This document shows, in pieces, positions 1-6,943 of a stretch of DNA of 64,000 nucleotides. The notes under the pieces were generated by a model. That model did not search any database and was not told the DNA's origin. It saw only the letters and a program-made list of their open reading frames with translations. How positions within the stretch are numbered: position 1 is the stretch's first letter; each line of letters opens with the position of its first letter. Source of the stretch: Nitrospira sp. GTDB lineage: Bacteria > Nitrospirota > Nitrospiria > Nitrospirales > Nitrospiraceae. Location of the stretch: NCBI GenBank assembly GCA_029194665.1, contig JARFXO010000010.1:1-64000 (forward strand), given 5' to 3'. The position numbers were made by a program, and so were the translations under genes.

Positions 1-99
1 TTGTCGAAGGGCGTAGGGTTCCGCGCAGTCCTATTCGTGGTTCGACAAGCTCACCACGAACGGAGTTCTGGGTACAACATGAGCGGGAAATCATCATGA
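1..99 (+). CDS. 3' end of an ORF, possibly FGE-sulfatase/C-type-lectin-like (partial)
   Basis: Frame 1 is open from the window edge to a TGA at 97-99, giving the last 32 residues of a protein. It contains GVGFRAVLF, which resembles the last strand of formylglycine-generating-enzyme (FGE) folds, the commonest kind of DGR target. The remaining residues are encoded by a hairpin repeat (34-60). Its stop overlaps the avd start as ATGA (96-99), so the two genes are probably translationally coupled. The sequence does not copy the 3' end of the template repeat at 1588-1700 apart from GGGTTCCG, so this end is not itself a templated variable repeat. Family assignment from so short a tail is tentative. 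Confidence 0.45.
   Translation: MSKGVGFRAVLFVVRQAHHERSSGYNMSGKSS
34..60. repeat. Inverted-repeat hairpin of a dispersed-repeat type
   Basis: TTCGTGGT (34-41) pairs with ACCACGAA (53-60) around an 11-base loop. From general knowledge, the core TTCGACAAGCTCACCACGAA belongs to a repeat often scattered in environmental bacterial genomes, where it is sometimes read through as protein tails such as VVRQAHHER, as here. It lies between the upstream ORF and avd. In other DGRs a DNA hairpin follows the variable repeat, but a role for this one is speculative. I saw no second copy in the window. Confidence 0.6.
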
Positions 100-449
100 C
101 CGAGGAAGGAACCGGCAGCCTTCCCGCTGCTGTCACGAAGGCCTACGATGTGTTGCTCTGGCTCATCAACCACGTGGGCAAATTTCCAAGGTCGCATCGG
201 TTTGTGCTTGGAGATCGGATCGAATCGCGTATGTTGAACGTACTCGAATCTCTGGTCCTGGCAGCCTATGCGCGAGAGAAGAAGTCGCATCTCCAGCAGG
301 CGAATGGGAATGTACAGGTCTTGCGTTTGTTGGTGCGAGCTGGGAAAGATTTGGGGTTCACCAGCGCGAAGCAGTATGAGTTCATCTCGCGCGAACTGGT
401 CGAGCTGGGCCGTCAAATCGGCGGCTGGACGAAAATTCAGGCAGGATGA
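96..449 (+). CDS. avd: DGR accessory variability determinant (Avd), four-helix bundle protein
   Basis: A 117-residue protein that is helical throughout, with the look of the Avd / S23-like four-helix bundle family (for example KAYDVLLWLINHVGKFPRSHRF near the N-terminus and a Lys/Arg-rich helix around residues 55-70). Avd proteins form a basic barrel-shaped pentamer that binds the reverse transcriptase and the template RNA and is required for mutagenic retrohoming. The start ATG overlaps the stop of the upstream ORF, and the gene ends 3 bases before the reverse transcriptase start, which fits a single DGR operon. The identification rests on family look plus the RT next door. Confidence 0.85.
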   Translation: MTEEGTGSLPAAVTKAYDVLLWLINHVGKFPRSHRFVLGDRIESRMLNVLESLVLAAYAREKKSHLQQANGNVQVLRLLVRAGKDLGFTSAKQYEFISRELVELGRQIGGWTKIQAG

Positions 450-452
450 TCG

Positions 453-1493
453 ATGGGCACCCTGTTCGAGCAAATCACGTCTTTTCCCAATCTGGTGCAA
501 GCGGCACGTCTAGCCGGCCGAGGCAAGCGCTTTCGTCCCAACGTAGCAGCCTTCGCCTTGGATCTGGAAGAGGAGCTGCATCAGGTGCGGCAAGAACTGG
601 TCTCGCGCAGGTATTGTCCCGGCCCCTACCGCACGTTTGTCATCCGTGAGAAGAAGCCCCGTTTCATCAGCGCGGCACCGTTCCGCGACCGCGTCGTGCA
701 CCATGCGCTCTGCAATATCATCGAGCCGATTTTCGATCGCCGTTTTCTCTACGATTCATACGCCTGCCGCAAGGGGAAGGGCACGCATGCGGCGGTGGAT
801 CGCGCGTCGTCCTACGCAGGACGATTTCGGTATGTGCTGAAGTGTGACATTGAGAAATATTTTCCCAGCATCGACCATGCCATTCTCCTTGAGCTGATCG
901 CCAAGCAAATCTGGGATGAGGGAGCGCTCTGGCTGATCCGCACCATCCTGGAGGGCAGCAACCAGCAGCCCAACGCACAGCATTACTTTCCGGGCGACGA
1001 TCTGTTTGCTCCGTTTGAACGGCGTCGTGGCATTCCCATCGGGAACCAAACGAGTCAGTTCTTTGCGAATGTCTACCTGGATCGTCTGGATCATTACGTG
1101 AAGGAAACGCTTCGTGTGCCCGGCTATGTGCGGTATGTCGACGATCTGCTGCTGTTCGATCACGATAAGCGACGGCTTCACGACGTGCGGTCGGCTCTTG
1201 GGGAGGCCCTCGCGGTGCTGCGATTGCGCCTCCATCCGAGGAAGTGCTTTGTGGCCACGGTCGCATCAGGATTTACCTTTCTCGGCTATCGGATCTTTCC
1301 CGCACATCGCCGGTTGGACGCGGACAATGTCCGACGATTCAAGCGGCGGCTCCGGCTGTATCGCCAGGCGGTGGCAGACCGGAGGATGTCGGACCTTCAG
1401 CGGAAAGATCGTATCCGAAGTTGGGTGGCCCATGCGGCACATGCCGACACGGCACGCCTGCGCACGAGAATCTTAGGCAAGGCGGTGTTGTGA
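453..1493 (+). CDS. Diversity-generating retroelement reverse transcriptase
   Basis: A 346-residue reverse transcriptase with the palm motifs in order: [23 protein letters not shown] (first catalytic Asp, about residue 130), [23 protein letters not shown], and the YVDD box in [10 protein letters not shown], followed by FLGY and a basic thumb-like end. The IGxxxSQ form of motif 4, in place of QGxxxSP, is the recognised mark of DGR reverse transcriptases as opposed to group II intron or retron enzymes. The known role is error-prone cDNA synthesis at template adenines, with the cDNA replacing a variable repeat in a target gene. An AGGA sits 6 bases ahead of the ATG. It lacks maturase and endonuclease domains and looks intact. 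Confidence 0.95.
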
Positions 1494-1540
1494 GCGTGGA
1501 AACATGCTTCGGGCGATGCACGTGGTAGGGGAGAGGATTG

Positions 1541-1562
1541 TGGCGGGACTGAGGCTCCGCCA
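1541..1562 (+). other. Stem-loop between DGR reverse transcriptase and template repeat
   Basis: TGGCGG (1541-1546) pairs with CCGCCA (1557-1562) around a 10-base loop. An alternative hairpin CTCCGC/GCGGGG with a CAT loop overlaps it, and a run of five T follows at 1578-1582. It could fold the template RNA leader or act as a weak terminator of the RT message. The sequence alone does not decide between these. Confidence 0.35.
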
Positions 1563-1587
1563 TGCGGGGTTGGTCGCTTTTTATGAT

Positions 1588-1700
1588 CCGCGGTGGGTCT
1601 TGGAACAATGAACCGGACAACGTCCGGTCTGCAAACCGGAACAGGAACATACCCACGAAACGGAACGATAATATCGGGTTCCGTTGCGCCCAAGACGCCT
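1588..1700 (+). repeat. Probable DGR template repeat (TR)
   Basis: About 95 bases after the RT stop, the + strand reads in one frame (codons from 1604) as a typical FGE-fold C-terminus: RGGSWNNEPDNVRS, then ANRNRN, then RNDNIGFRCA. Eight codons are AAC or AAT (1604, 1607, 1619, 1634, 1640, 1646, 1664, 1670). This is the codon pattern expected of a DGR template, because adenine mutagenesis of AAY can give many amino acids but no stop codon. There is no convincing start or full-length protein around it, so it is a template rather than a gene. Both boundaries are approximate, since no variable repeat is present here to align. The expected 3' homology (IMH) side is near GGGTTCCGTTGCGCC (1676-1690). 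Confidence 0.85.
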
Positions 1701-2131: not shown

Positions 2132-3031
2132 ATGATGGTGAAACTTACATGTGGTATGCGACTGGTGTTGACGGTGGGAGCGTGTCTGCTCTTGGGGCTA
2201 CCTCCATGGCCTACGGTGCTCGGGGCTGAGGAGCCGGTCACGATTTCAAAGTCCGAGGAGTATTTCCCTGATGTGGTCGGGAGCAGTTGGACCTATCGCG
2301 GCCAGATCAACGAGGGACCACTCCAATCTGTGGAACTGAAGATGTTCACAAATGTGTCGACGGTCTCGGGCACTAAAACCATGAACGGTGTCACCGTCAC
2401 GGTGTTCCATGATACGAACCCGGGCGATCATGGACCGTCGGATAGTTTTTATCGACGCGATGCCGTCGGCATTGTGTATTATGGGTCGGATCCGGGAACA
2501 CCGTTCGAGAAACATCTGACCCCCTATCAGATTTTTAGATTTCCGTTGAGAATTCCATCCTCCTTCCAGCAGTTTGACCGAATGGGAGTTGATTTCGGCA
2601 GCGATATGGATCGTGACCAGACGGATGAAAAGGTCGATACCCAGGGCTGGAGTAAAGTGGTTGGTCGAGAAACCATCACCGTTCCGGCCGGTACGTTTCA
2701 GGATGCCATCAAAGTGGAATCGCGGATGAACATGAAGATCCACTTGTCAGGAAGCCGTCGCACCGTCTCAGGAATCGACGTGATGACGGCCTGGTTCGCC
2801 AAGGGGGTCGGTCTCGTGAAATATACCGAACGGCAGGAATTATCAGCCATCAAGGAAGACCGCGGCGTCGTAACGGAGATCACGGAAGAACTGGAAGCGT
2901 ACGAGGTCAAACCCGCGAAGGCCTCACTGAGTCGATTCGAACCCACGGCGAAGGGTGTTCTCACTGATGACTTTGGCGATCATGAACTGGGTCAGATAGT
3001 CTTCCACGCCCGTTTTCGTGCCTACCCCTGA
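2132..3031 (+). CDS. Exported protein of unknown function
   Basis: A 299-residue protein with a signal peptide (basic start, hydrophobic VLTVGACLLLGLPP, likely cleavage after VLGA near residue 33). The mature part is rich in beta-strand patterns (SSWTYRG, then WSKVVGRETITVPAGTF), reminiscent of periplasmic beta-sandwich lipoprotein-carrier-like or DUF3108-like proteins. I do not recognise the exact family. GGAG precedes the ATG by 5 bases. Its last 36 codons run antisense into the end of putA, a 108-bp tail-to-tail overlap, so the C-terminus may be a readthrough extension beyond an ancestral stop. No partner gene is evident. Confidence 0.75.
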   Translation: MMVKLTCGMRLVLTVGACLLLGLPPWPTVLGAEEPVTISKSEEYFPDVVGSSWTYRGQINEGPLQSVELKMFTNVSTVSGTKTMNGVTVTVFHDTNPGDHGPSDSFYRRDAVGIVYYGSDPGTPFEKHLTPYQIFRFPLRIPSSFQQFDRMGVDFGSDMDRDQTDEKVDTQGWSKVVGRETITVPAGTFQDAIKVESRMNMKIHLSGSRRTVSGIDVMTAWFAKGVGLVKYTERQELSAIKEDRGVVTEITEELEAYEVKPAKASLSRFEPTAKGVLTDDFGDHELGQIVFHARFRAYP

Positions 3032-5875
3032 GAATCGGTGCCCACCGAAGGGTTGTCGGGAAACGAGGGCGCCGGTGATCGGTCGGTTCAAGTAGAGATT
3101 GCCCACGTCGAATTCCTCCCGTGCCTTGGCAAGAGTGGCCGGGCTTCTGGCATAGACTCCGCCGGTCAATGCATAGTCGGTCCCATTCGCCATGCGAATT
3201 GCGTCGGCCATACTGTCCGCTTTCATAACGGCTAGGACCGGCCCAAAGATTTCCTCCTGTGCCAGACGGTGATGCGGTTGGATGTCGACAAACACCGTCG
3301 GTCCGACGAAATATCCGGTTTGATCCACGGGGTACTGCACGAGGAGCCGGCCTTCTTCGAGCCCGAGTGACAGATAGCGTTGTATACTCGCCTTGGCTCG
3401 GGCATCGATCACCGGTCCTACTTTGGTGGACGGGTGCATGGGATTGCCGACCTCCAAGCTCAGCACTGCCTCACGGAGGCGGGAAACGAAGGTCTCGTAG
3501 ACGGTGCGATGGACGATGACTCGGGAGCAAGCCGAGCACTTCTGTCCCGCGTAGCCGGCGAACGATGCGACGACACCGGTAATTGCTTCGTCGAGGTCCG
3601 CGGTCTCATCGACAATGATGGCATTCTTCCCACCCATCTCGGCAATCACCCGCTTGACCATAGGCTGTCCTGGGCGCTCGTGTGATGCTTCGGCCAACAT
3701 GCGGAGTCCAACGGCCTTCGATCCGGTAAACGCGATCGTTACGACATGGGGATGCGCGACGAGCGCTTGGCCGACCTCCGGTCCACCTGGAAGACAGGTC
3801 AAACAACCGGCTGGTACACCGGCTTGGATCAAGATGTCGGTGAGCAAAGTTCCTAAGATGGGCGAGCGTTCCGACGGTTTGAACAGGACCGGATTTCCGG
3901 TCACGAGTGCTGCTGAGATCATTCCTGTCGGGATGGCGAGCGGAAAATTCCATGGCGCGATGACTGCCGTCACGCCGCGCGGTTCATAGACAAGCTGGTT
4001 GAGTTCCCCCGGACGGTTGCCCAATCGCATCGGCCGAGCCAGACGATCCATCTCATCGGCATAGTAGCGAAGAAAGTCGATCGCTTCCGTCACATCGGCA
4101 TCGGCCTCGCGCCAGGGTTTGCCGACCTCAAAGATCTCCCAGGCTGCCAGCTCGTACCGACGACGAGACATTTCCGACGCTGCATGGCGCAGCATTTCAG
4201 ATCGAGCTTCCGGAGCCTTCCGCCACCAAGGGTCCCATTGTTTGAGCGCCTGTTCAATGATGTAGTCCAGGTCGGACAACGCCGCGCTTTGCACCTTGGC
4301 CACGACCTCATGTGGTCTACAAGGGTTACGGGATTCCAGCCATGGACCGGTCAGTCTGATGCCGGGTGCTCCACCGCGCCATTCTCGACCCAGCTGAGAT
4401 TGAACCGATCCAATACTCGCTCGCATGGCCTTCCGAACCTCTGCCCGTGAAAAGTCGCTATGTGGTTCATTGCTGAAAAGCTTCTTGCCGTTCGTTGTTG
4501 TGGGTTGGAATTGCGCCGACGTTGTTGGTGGAACGAGAAGCCGGGCCAATGGTTGTGACTCGACGTACTCTTTTTGGAGGAACGATTCGTTTGATGTATT
4601 TTCCAAGAGCCGCCGTACCAGATAGGCCATGCCGGGGAGCAGTTGACCCACGGGTGTGTACAAACGTACCCGACGCCCCAGTTTCACCAAAGCTTGTTGG
4701 AAAGGCTCCGCCATACCGAAGATCATTTGGTATTCGCGCGTGTCAGGCGTCAGACCCCGCGATTCCGCATGGGCTTCGATGGCAGCCAACGTGCGAAGAT
4801 TGTGCGTGCCGAACGCGGGACGGATGAGATCGGCATGGTCAAACAGCAGCGGAATCAATCGCTCGTACTGCATATCGGTTTCCGCCTTCTGCTCAAAAAG
4901 CGGAAGCGGCCAGCCTGCTTGCCGATATCGGACAGTGTCTGAATCCCAGTAAGCACCTTTGACCAGTCGAATCGTGATCGGTGTACCACGTGTTCGTACC
5001 CAGGCCACGAGATCATGGACATCCCGTTCGGTTTCTCGGTGATAGGCTTGCAGCGCGAGTCCGGCATGGGGATAGGATCGATAGGCTGGCTCTGCGAAGA
5101 GTCGTTTAAAAATATTCAGGATCAGGTCCTTCGTGTCGGCTTGCTCCATATCGAAAATCAATCCGGCCGGCAGCGACTGTGCCAGATCCACCAGCGGACG
5201 GAGACGCGCGGCGATCGATTCGTAACTTCCATCGGGATCGATCGGGTCCAAACGAGATGAGAGAGCCGAAATTTTGAGCGACAGCTGCACTGGTGGGATC
5301 GGTCCCAAGTGGTCTTGTTGGAGCAGCGGCGTGGAAGGCCAAGTGTTGATGGCCTGACCGAGTTCTTTCAACGCATTCAGGCACTGATCACGATAGTGGT
5401 CGGCCTCCCGCTCGCTGATCGTCGCTTCTCCCAGCAGATCGACAGACCAGGCTCGTCCGTCTTTCCATAACTGCGACAGGACCGGTAATGCCTCTGCGAT
5501 CGAGGCTCCGGCGATGAAGGTCTTGGCCATCTGTTCGATCTGTTTCCTGATCGATTTGCCTGTGAGACGGGCTCCCATGCTTGTTGAAGCCAGTGCCTTC
5601 AATCCCCACTGAAGTCCGAACAACTCGTTGCTCTCGCGGCCGAAATATTCTTCGGCCAGCGAGACGACTCGTTGATCGTCCTGAATGACCGGAAGGACAT
5701 CGATGAAGTGGAACAACCTGGTCTTAAACGATGCATCCTTCATCGCCAGGTTGATCGCCGAATGAGACCACCAGCGGCTATCGAAGATCGAGGGGGAATG
5801 GCCGGCGGAGAGCCGGGCAAGTTGTTCGCCGATCCGAAGAATGGTCGGCTCAAGCGAAGAGGGTACCGTCGTCAT
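2924..5875 (-). CDS. putA: Bifunctional proline dehydrogenase / L-glutamate-gamma-semialdehyde dehydrogenase
   Basis: A 983-residue enzyme that oxidises proline to glutamate in two steps. The N-terminal FAD-dependent proline dehydrogenase barrel shows RLVKGAYWD (about residue 300). The C-terminal NAD-dependent aldehyde dehydrogenase shows APWNFPLAIP, FTGSKAVG, EMGGKNA and the catalytic Cys in AGQKCSACSR, ending with the PutA-like ENTLRRGF. The ribbon-helix-helix DNA-binding domain of E. coli PutA is absent, so it should not autoregulate. I chose the ATG at 5875 over a longer frame to 5950 because AGGAG lies 6 bases upstream. A TATACT box lies a few bases further up, but no clear -35 is visible. 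The 3' end overlaps the convergent exported-protein gene by 108 bp. Confidence 0.95.
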   Translation of the reverse strand: MTTVPSSLEPTILRIGEQLARLSAGHSPSIFDSRWWSHSAINLAMKDASFKTRLFHFIDVLPVIQDDQRVVSLAEEYFGRESNELFGLQWGLKALASTSMGARLTGKSIRKQIEQMAKTFIAGASIAEALPVLSQLWKDGRAWSVDLLGEATISEREADHYRDQCLNALKELGQAINTWPSTPLLQQDHLGPIPPVQLSLKISALSSRLDPIDPDGSYESIAARLRPLVDLAQSLPAGLIFDMEQADTKDLILNIFKRLFAEPAYRSYPHAGLALQAYHRETERDVHDLVAWVRTRGTPITIRLVKGAYWDSDTVRYRQAGWPLPLFEQKAETDMQYERLIPLLFDHADLIRPAFGTHNLRTLAAIEAHAESRGLTPDTREYQMIFGMAEPFQQALVKLGRRVRLYTPVGQLLPGMAYLVRRLLENTSNESFLQKEYVESQPLARLLVPPTTSAQFQPTTTNGKKLFSNEPHSDFSRAEVRKAMRASIGSVQSQLGREWRGGAPGIRLTGPWLESRNPCRPHEVVAKVQSAALSDLDYIIEQALKQWDPWWRKAPEARSEMLRHAASEMSRRRYELAAWEIFEVGKPWREADADVTEAIDFLRYYADEMDRLARPMRLGNRPGELNQLVYEPRGVTAVIAPWNFPLAIPTGMISAALVTGNPVLFKPSERSPILGTLLTDILIQAGVPAGCLTCLPGGPEVGQALVAHPHVVTIAFTGSKAVGLRMLAEASHERPGQPMVKRVIAEMGGKNAIIVDETADLDEAITGVVASFAGYAGQKCSACSRVIVHRTVYETFVSRLREAVLSLEVGNPMHPSTKVGPVIDARAKASIQRYLSLGLEEGRLLVQYPVDQTGYFVGPTVFVDIQPHHRLAQEEIFGPVLAVMKADSMADAIRMANGTDYALTGGVYARSPATLAKAREEFDVGNLYLNRPITGALVSRQPFGGHRFSGVGTKTGVEDYLTQFMIAKVISENTLRRGFESTQ

Positions 5876-6067
5876 ATATACTCCTGACACAGTATACCTC
5901 GTCCTTTGCTTCCCCAGTAGGCTACATGGATAATGGCCCGACCGACCCATATCATTTCGCGTCTATCATCGCTTATGATGCTGGAGTCAGATTAAATACG
6001 GACTCAGATCGAAGACACGCGTGCTCTATGACGCGGGTCGGTCGAAATCAGAGTAGGAGATATCGAT

Positions 6068-6943
6068 ATGGCTGACGAACATGGTCATGGGGCACAACAG
6101 CCTCAGGTAAAAGATAATTTGATCCCCGGCGTGAAGCAGGTCATCGCGGTGAGCAGCGGAAAAGGAGGAGTCGGCAAATCAACCGTGGCGGCGAACCTGG
6201 CCTGTGCGTTGGCCGTGGCCGGTGCCAAGGTAGGGCTGTTGGACGCCGACCTGTACGGCCCCAACATTCCGATGATGATGGGGAGTACGGCCGGACCGGA
6301 ACAGAAAGACGGCAAGATTGTTCCGGTCGAGAATTACGGGGTGAAGCTGATTTCCATGGCGTTTCTGGTGCCGGAAGAAGCCCCGCTGGTTTGGCGCGGT
6401 CCGATGGTCCATCAGTATCTGCAAGCGTTCTTCCGCGATGTGCTCTGGGGGGACCTGGATTATTTACTTATCGACTTGCCGCCTGGTACCGGTGACGTGC
6501 AGCTATCCTTGTCACAGATGGTTCCGTTAGCCGGAGCTATTACCGTGACCACGCCGCAAGAAGTCGCGCTCTACGACGTTCGTAAGGGTATGGCGATGTT
6601 CCAGAAAGTAAATGTTCCGCTCCTAGGTATCATCGAAAATATGAGTTATTTTGTCTGTGGTCACTGCGGTGAGCGGACGGAGATCTTTTCACATGGAGGA
6701 GGGGAGCGAGCGGCGGCCAAGCTCGCGGTGCCGTTCCTCGGGCGGATCCCAATCGATCCAGCCATTAGGGATGGGGGAGATACCGGTCATCCGATCGTCG
6801 TCTCTGATCCGGCATCTCCTCAGGCCGAGGCGTTTCGGGGGATCGCAAAGAAAATCATGCAAGAGCTGGGTGGGACCGGGAAAGCCGGACAGTCCATCGA
6901 TAGTTTGCTCAAGAAGATCAAGCAACCGTTCAGCAGCAATTGA
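6068..6943 (+). CDS. mrp: Mrp/NBP35-type iron-sulfur cluster carrier ATPase
   Basis: A 291-residue P-loop ATPase of the Mrp/ApbC/NBP35 family that holds and transfers [4Fe-4S] clusters to apo-proteins in the cytoplasm. It shows the deviant Walker A in SSGKGGVGKST (about residue 30), DADLYGPNIP, LLIDLPPGTGD, and the CxxC cluster ligands in FVCGHCG (about residue 195). The N-terminal DUF59/MIP18-like domain of longer Mrp proteins is missing. AGGAG precedes the ATG by 8 bases. It is followed by a Rieske ferredoxin gene 26 bases downstream, which fits an iron-sulfur theme. Confidence 0.95.
   Translation: MADEHGHGAQQPQVKDNLIPGVKQVIAVSSGKGGVGKSTVAANLACALAVAGAKVGLLDADLYGPNIPMMMGSTAGPEQKDGKIVPVENYGVKLISMAFLVPEEAPLVWRGPMVHQYLQAFFRDVLWGDLDYLLIDLPPGTGDVQLSLSQMVPLAGAITVTTPQEVALYDVRKGMAMFQKVNVPLLGIIENMSYFVCGHCGERTEIFSHGGGERAAAKLAVPFLGRIPIDPAIRDGGDTGHPIVVSDPASPQAEAFRGIAKKIMQELGGTGKAGQSIDSLLKKIKQPFSSN

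Follow-up and report, generated by a model that had tools for sequence, protein, structure and literature searches.

A diversity-generating retroelement of Nitrospira with several lectin-effector targets and a C/T-rich tract behind its target genes

We analysed a window of 64,000 bases (bases 1-64000 of contig C10) from a Nitrospira genome (4.80 Mb, 17 contigs, 99.5% complete) and found at its start a real, complete diversity-generating retroelement (DGR), for which the accessory protein Avd, the reverse transcriptase (RT), the template repeat (TR) and the targets were identified. It is very likely a cellular, Avd-containing DGR in which copies of the TR with errors at adenines replace the variable repeats (VRs) of several lectin-effector targets, both near the cassette and remote from it.

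Avd, RT and TR lie in that order at the start of the contig, all on the + strand. Avd (96-449, + strand, 117 aa), the four-helix accessory protein of DGRs, scored 104 bits against the NCBIfam family NF033474, 'diversity-generating retroelement protein Avd' (cut-off 80), and was above the cut-off for the Pfam family bAvd. It is 85-90% identical to the copies of two Nitrospira relatives. The RT (453-1493, + strand, 346 aa) carries YVDD and IGNQTSQ, the latter fitting the DGR-clade motif (I/V/L)GxxxSQ, and is 83% identical to the RT on Nitrospira contig L065 and 76% to that on L055. Both frames are open and all motifs are present. The initial annotation had described Avd, an RT with these two motifs and a template repeat ordered on one strand, and the protein families, motifs and common strand bear it out.

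The best solved relative of the RT is 8ub7 (chain titled 'Reverse transcriptase', E 5e-53), which we take to be the RT of the BPP-1 DGR; the second best is a group II RT (E 3e-21). In a maximum-likelihood tree of DGR and group II RTs, the window RT fell among the DGR RTs, which included those of BIP-1 and ANMV-1; a split with support of 100/100 set them apart from the genome's second RT and from four group II RTs. The phylogeny that had been proposed as a check of the locus thus places its RT with DGRs and apart from group II introns. A group II intron RT was rejected, as the match to NCBIfam group_II_RT_mat (146 bits) is below its cut-off of 300 and both motif (IGNQTSQ rather than QGxxxSP) and tree are against it. 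The match to NCBIfam retron_St85 (50 bits) was also under its cut-off (235). The second genomic RT (C3:74250-75179, QGGIISP, 572 aa) was rejected as a second DGR because the tree places it with group II introns. A phage origin of the locus was rejected because the downstream genes, read by eye, look chromosomal; among these neighbours, also read by eye, are a proline/aldehyde dehydrogenase-like gene (2924-5950) and an Mrp-like gene (6068-6943).

Similarity to the VRs places the TR at 1584-1697 (+ strand). The initial annotation had placed the template at 1588-1700, slightly offset from this span of VR similarity. The variable adenines span 1604-1673, and 25 of the 29 adenines over 1595-1676 are at codon positions 1 and 2. 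Translated in frame, the TR gives GGSWNNEPDNVRSANRN...GFRCAQD, and the target proteins have the FGE fold, in agreement with the FGE-type templating suggested earlier. By TR/VR comparison, the 3' end of the TR (GGGTTCCGTTGCGCCCAAGACG; 1676-1697, + strand) is IMH*-like: it reads CCCAAGAC in all three TRs and CCCAGGAC in most VRs, a difference that resembles the one between IMH* and IMH in BPP-1. The sequence beyond the TR (1698-1876, + strand) is non-coding and conserved; it was recognized from its fold and from its conservation in four sequences (the window, the L065 and L055 cassettes, and a scar in the genome G037). Presumably it belongs to the template RNA as an Sp-like 3' portion. The predicted fold of 1584-1890 was better than those of 100 of 100 shuffles (z = -5.85), and 4 of 59 pairs of the predicted template RNA, a small number, were changed on both sides.

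A search of the whole genome with the TR recovered four further matches (E 1e-18 to 9e-31), at C5:230887, C7:291237, C1:703833 and C1:698394; the next was no better than 0.02. Relative to the TR, the C5 VR was changed at 16 of 32 adenines and 1 of 78 other bases (Fisher p 1e-9) and the C7 VR at 20 and 4 (p 3e-10). The corresponding counts were 18 and 6 for the VR of the TIR target on C1 (p 1e-7), and 16 and 9 for that of the trypsin target on C1 (p 3e-5). The relation between TR and VRs is far beyond chance, because the mismatches concentrate on template adenines. Adenine-biased matches elsewhere in the genome were what the initial annotation had proposed to look for, and these four VRs, with 16-20 of 32 adenines changed against 1-9 of 78 other bases, are such matches. 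In their cores, the C5 and C7 VRs do not differ at any non-A site but have the same base at only 28% of A sites, as separate error-prone copies of a single template should; therefore one TR wrote both. There were no stop codons in any of the four VRs. A scan for matches at non-A sites added two decayed copies, one at C1:702124 (67/81) and one on C3 (64/81), and ordinary FGE paralogues scored at most 57/81. The genome has 24 FGE-family genes above the cut-off, the TR itself aside. The two C1 VRs, with 6 and 9 non-A changes, may belong to former targets.

It had been thought that the machine was complete apart from its target. The machine is complete, but it has four target genes on other contigs; there is no target upstream in the window because window base 1 is base 1 of contig C10. 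At the contig start is half of a REP-like palindromic repeat (1-63, + strand), the other half of which forms the last bases of C7: the last letters of C7 are ...CCGTTCGCCC, and C10 opens with TTGTCGAAGGGCG. The unit obtained by joining them, CCGTTCGCCCTGAGCTTGTCGAAGGGCG, has 14 copies in the genome (at most 2 mismatches), and its reversed control has none. Some of these REP-like repeats sit directly behind lectin genes. The stop codon of the caspase gene is 114 bases from the C7 end. At a paralogous locus on C3, which is unbroken, an FGE gene, a REP pair and an Avd start follow one another. The order VR gene-Avd-RT-TR is orthologous in two Nitrospira relatives (L065 and L055), where the VR gene (TIR-FGE in L065, trypsin-FGE in L055) is about 90 bases ahead of Avd. 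Very probably C7 abuts C10, and the gap is an assembly break within the repeat. The TIR-FGE VR of L065 is frameshifted (L065:6431-6569), reading RMRVPLCPG for GFRCAQD, which is either genuine or an assembly error.

All four targets have an FGE-sulfatase domain above the Pfam cut-off at the VR. The C7 target (601 aa) joins this domain to a caspase domain (Peptidase_C14), the C5 target and one C1 target join it to Trypsin_2, and the other C1 target has TIR_2, one membrane segment and FGE. The caspase and trypsin targets have hydrophobic N-termini. Read by eye, the caspase target has SGHG and DACRNN, and the TIR target keeps the WxxxE glutamate. The trypsin targets, also by eye, have the His and Ser (TAAHVV, GNSGGP/GHSGGP) and a glycine at the usual position of the catalytic Asp. 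The single hydrophobic segments in the hydropathy profiles fit export or one membrane pass, and on hydropathy the lectin domain is predicted to be outside the cytoplasm in all four. MoxR, vWA and STAND were not among the Pfam matches of the four targets. An Hcp-like (T6SS_HCP) gene accompanies the TIR-FGE target in two species: on C1 it lies behind TIR-FGE (L134:17999 onward), and in L065 it lies behind the TR (L065:8483-8971). A partnership of these genes with type VI secretion was rejected, as no VipB sheath gene is present in the genome.

The diversified domain shares its fold with SUMF1/FGE (phmmer E about 1e-47) and is also a relative of TvpA (2y3c). An AlphaFold model of the lectin domain of the caspase target had a mean pLDDT of 60, lowest in the VR region, too weak as support for the fold. 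SUMF1/FGE has two catalytic cysteines in a loop; in the alignment the VR covers this loop and has no cysteines of its own, and enzyme activity is not predicted here. Because the VR replaces the catalytic-cysteine loop, diversification acts on a binding surface and not on the FGE active site. The surface or ligand-binding protein expected by the initial annotation is seen in the ligand-binding CLec fold, but the Pfam matches show fusions to effector domains instead of a plain adhesin. The targets are more like putative sensors of conflict systems than plain adhesins.

DGR RTs of the window's family were found in 10 of about 79 genomes of the genus, and TR/VR-like repeats in 22 of about 79. The pattern of decay is a VR gene followed by an Avd stub: 16 codons behind the trypsin-FGE target on C1 (L134:12606-12653), 66 nt on C3 and 51 codons in G001. 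The C1 stub is followed by what, read by eye, resembles a toxin-antitoxin pair with a YgiT-type zinc finger (L134:12606-13330 in all). In G037 (L171:4786-5069), a lectin gene continues into TR sequence and the 3' flank of the TR, and Avd-RT is missing. This hybrid is VR-gene-like upstream of base 1584, its part corresponding to 1584-1866 matches the TR side of the window at 85%, and its flanks match the C1 cluster and the intact L055 cassette. Recombination of a VR with the TR appears to have excised the DGR core here. The Nitrospira set shows how cassettes end, by VR-TR recombination or by decay to a VR gene and an Avd stub, and targets left after cassette decay can still be served by another cassette.

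Directly 3' of the VR gene stop, the tract-bearing Nitrospira targets share a C/T-rich sequence, TAACCTTTWCNCTTTGACCCTGTTTCCTTTTCTCCGG. A 26-base core of this tract was found at 22 sites in 77 genomes of the genus (reversed control, 0). Twenty of the 22 sites are behind an FGE-type end, in most cases at a constant spacing, and 17 of these ends carry a VR that resembles the TR. The four sites in this genome are behind the FGE ends of genes on C5, C7, C1 (trypsin) and C3. Since the first set of VRs had been chosen by the tract, we remeasured conservation on VRs picked by TR similarity. The tract had an identity of 0.70-0.83, compared with about 0.5-0.7 across most of the upstream lectin coding sequence (top window 0.84) and 0.16-0.43 behind the tract. 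One family, TM-FGE (C1:702124, with orthologues in G037, G001 and G012), is without the full tract. Between species its VRs are frozen, with 90% identity at A sites and 83% at other sites, whereas tract-bearing VRs are 35% identical at A sites and 80% at others. This correlation between tract and variability rests on one evolutionary loss, because the frozen side is one orthologous family in four genomes. Behind the cis target of the window there was no BPP-1-type hairpin (6-bp stem with 4-nt loop), and the fold energy of the sequence behind its VR was no better than that of shuffles.

Beyond Nitrospira, we examined 80 RT loci (79 from a public search and one plasmid), of which 47 had A-biased TR/VR pairs. 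The criterion for a tract (at least three CTTT in 45 bases) was set while viewing the data, and the counts are descriptive. A tract was present behind the VR at 13 of 19 loci with at least 50% RT identity to the window, 3 of 11 with 45-50%, and 0 of 24 below. It was found behind 1 of 19 TRs and at 5% of other gene ends, and its random rate was 2.4% in one estimate and 1% in another. In a tree of 57 RTs, all 18 loci with a tract were in one clade of 30 rows (support 97/97), 12 of which were without a tract by this criterion, and there were none among the 27 outside. The tract-bearing relatives span several phyla. The four scored loci with hairpins share another clade of this tree. Ideonella, Alteromonas, Moritella, Photobacterium and phage BIP-1 have GATA- or GAAA-loop hairpins instead of a tract (that of Photobacterium is short and was read by eye), and Prosthecochloris has neither. 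Behind the VRs of L056, L058, L116 and L223, the CTTT tract is replaced by TCTG/TTTTCTG repeats, which may be a further class of post-VR element. The sole prospective test was made on plasmid DGRs: a tract was predicted and found for those of Nostoc, Microcystis, Acaryochloris and Anabaena (RTs 51-55% identical to L063), weak in Anabaena and in some Acaryochloris VRs; the Fischerella tract was known before the prediction. The exact tract pattern had no match in viral contigs.

Three other explanations of these data were weighed. That 1562-1786 is a broken FGE gene end and not a template is extremely improbable: the interval does form an open frame with similarity to the FGE family, but there is no FGE sequence ahead of it, two relatives have the TR unit 3' of the RT as well, together with a conserved flank, and the differences sit at adenines in four separate genes, an adenine bias that refutes such a reading. 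The cassette could also be a relic, with Avd, RT and TR intact but disused and the VRs fossils of past diversification. Orphan VRs are indeed common in Nitrospira genomes in which no DGR RT was found (compare the 22 genomes with repeats and the 10 with RTs), the C1 VRs have drifted, and TR base T1600 is unlike all four VRs, reflecting either no recent copying that reached this base or drift of the TR. We nevertheless consider a relic unlikely, given the open frames and complete motifs of Avd and RT, the single non-A change in the C5 VR, which fits recent copying, and the freedom of all four VRs from stop codons. We infer that the cassette is currently active.

The third explanation concerns the tract, which might play no part in retrohoming and be either DNA hitchhiking with the end of the lectin domain or a feature of transcription. 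In its favour, genomes hold duplicated FGE ends that could bring their 3' flank with them, and the tract sits right behind a gene. On the other hand, the tract is conserved as well as, or better than, most of the coding sequence ahead and the flank decays at once beyond it; it recurs in other phyla where the rest of the flank is unlike; it is nearly absent behind TRs and rare at other gene ends; and it has no hairpin of the intrinsic terminator type. On balance we find this explanation rather doubtful. A broader proposal, which we regard as evenly poised, is that there are two classes of target tag, a GRNA-loop hairpin in the phage-type clade and the CTTT tract in a large cellular clade of lectin sensors, and that the tag picks the paralogues diversified in trans while its loss freezes them.

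In our preferred reading, an active DGR with several targets, Avd-RT would copy the RNA that contains the TR, making errors at adenines, and the resulting cDNA would replace the VR at the 3' end of target genes, so that one TR could serve several of them. The cis target would be the caspase-FGE gene on C7, which almost certainly adjoins the cassette; at least one trypsin-FGE gene, on C5, would be served at a distance; the two C1 targets (trypsin-FGE and TIR-membrane-FGE) may hold older or occasional copies. A GC-rich IMH and the C/T-rich tract just past the stop codon, replacing the hairpin of BPP-1, probably mark the target. The VR would lie in a predicted extracytoplasmic FGE/C-type-lectin domain without catalytic cysteines, joined to a protease or TIR effector. 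The most likely function is to vary sensors in which ligand binding is coupled to an effector, a role that has been proposed for DGR conflict systems. A tract that separates variable from frozen targets is a concrete candidate for how cellular DGRs choose among lectin paralogues, and this target-site tract, with the function we infer for it, and the variable/frozen contrast are the points of interest to specialists.

To our knowledge, the mechanism of DGRs is known almost solely from phage BPP-1. Our literature search, which covered the main text of freely available papers, found no description of an element behind the VR, whether pyrimidine-rich or other. A DGR in a Nitrospira-type genome, which the initial annotation held to be worth study, is not new, as DiGReF listed one from Nitrospirae in 2012 (PMC3521204); it is from the same phylum, and the article's text, at least, gives neither its targets nor its locus. 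The literature already describes CLec sensors that DGRs diversify and that carry trypsin, caspase and TIR domains, as well as trans targets and decayed loci (PMC10907252, PMC7159879, PMC7517822); the window's DGR, with its TIR, caspase and trypsin lectin proteins, is a further example of this known kind. The conflict-system DGRs of cyanobacteria and Thiohalocapsa also have Avd-RT-TR, diversify FGE/CLec targets to which trypsin, caspase-like and TIR domains are fused or linked, act on remote or trans targets and include decayed loci; the RTs of cyanobacterial plasmid DGRs are in the same clade as the window RT. They differ from the DGR described here, in which effector and VR domain are within one short polypeptide, the Pfam matches of the four targets include no MoxR, vWA or STAND module, and the lectin domain is predicted to be extracytoplasmic in all four. 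For remote targets, the cyanobacterial study guessed at cruciforms (PMC7517822). BPP-1 targets are marked by a hairpin 3' of the VR, and this hairpin is needed for efficient homing (PMC3240598). The BPP-1 cassette has been reconstituted in a laboratory strain of E. coli (PMC12875486). The DGRs of BPP-1 and BIP-1 have Avd, RT, TR, IMH, adenine mutagenesis and a related RT in common with that of Nitrospira. In contrast, their order is Avd-TR-RT rather than Avd-RT-TR, their target site has a GRNA-loop hairpin (PMC3240598) where the Nitrospira targets have a C/T-rich tract, and their target is a tail protein, whereas here it is a protein of the cell.
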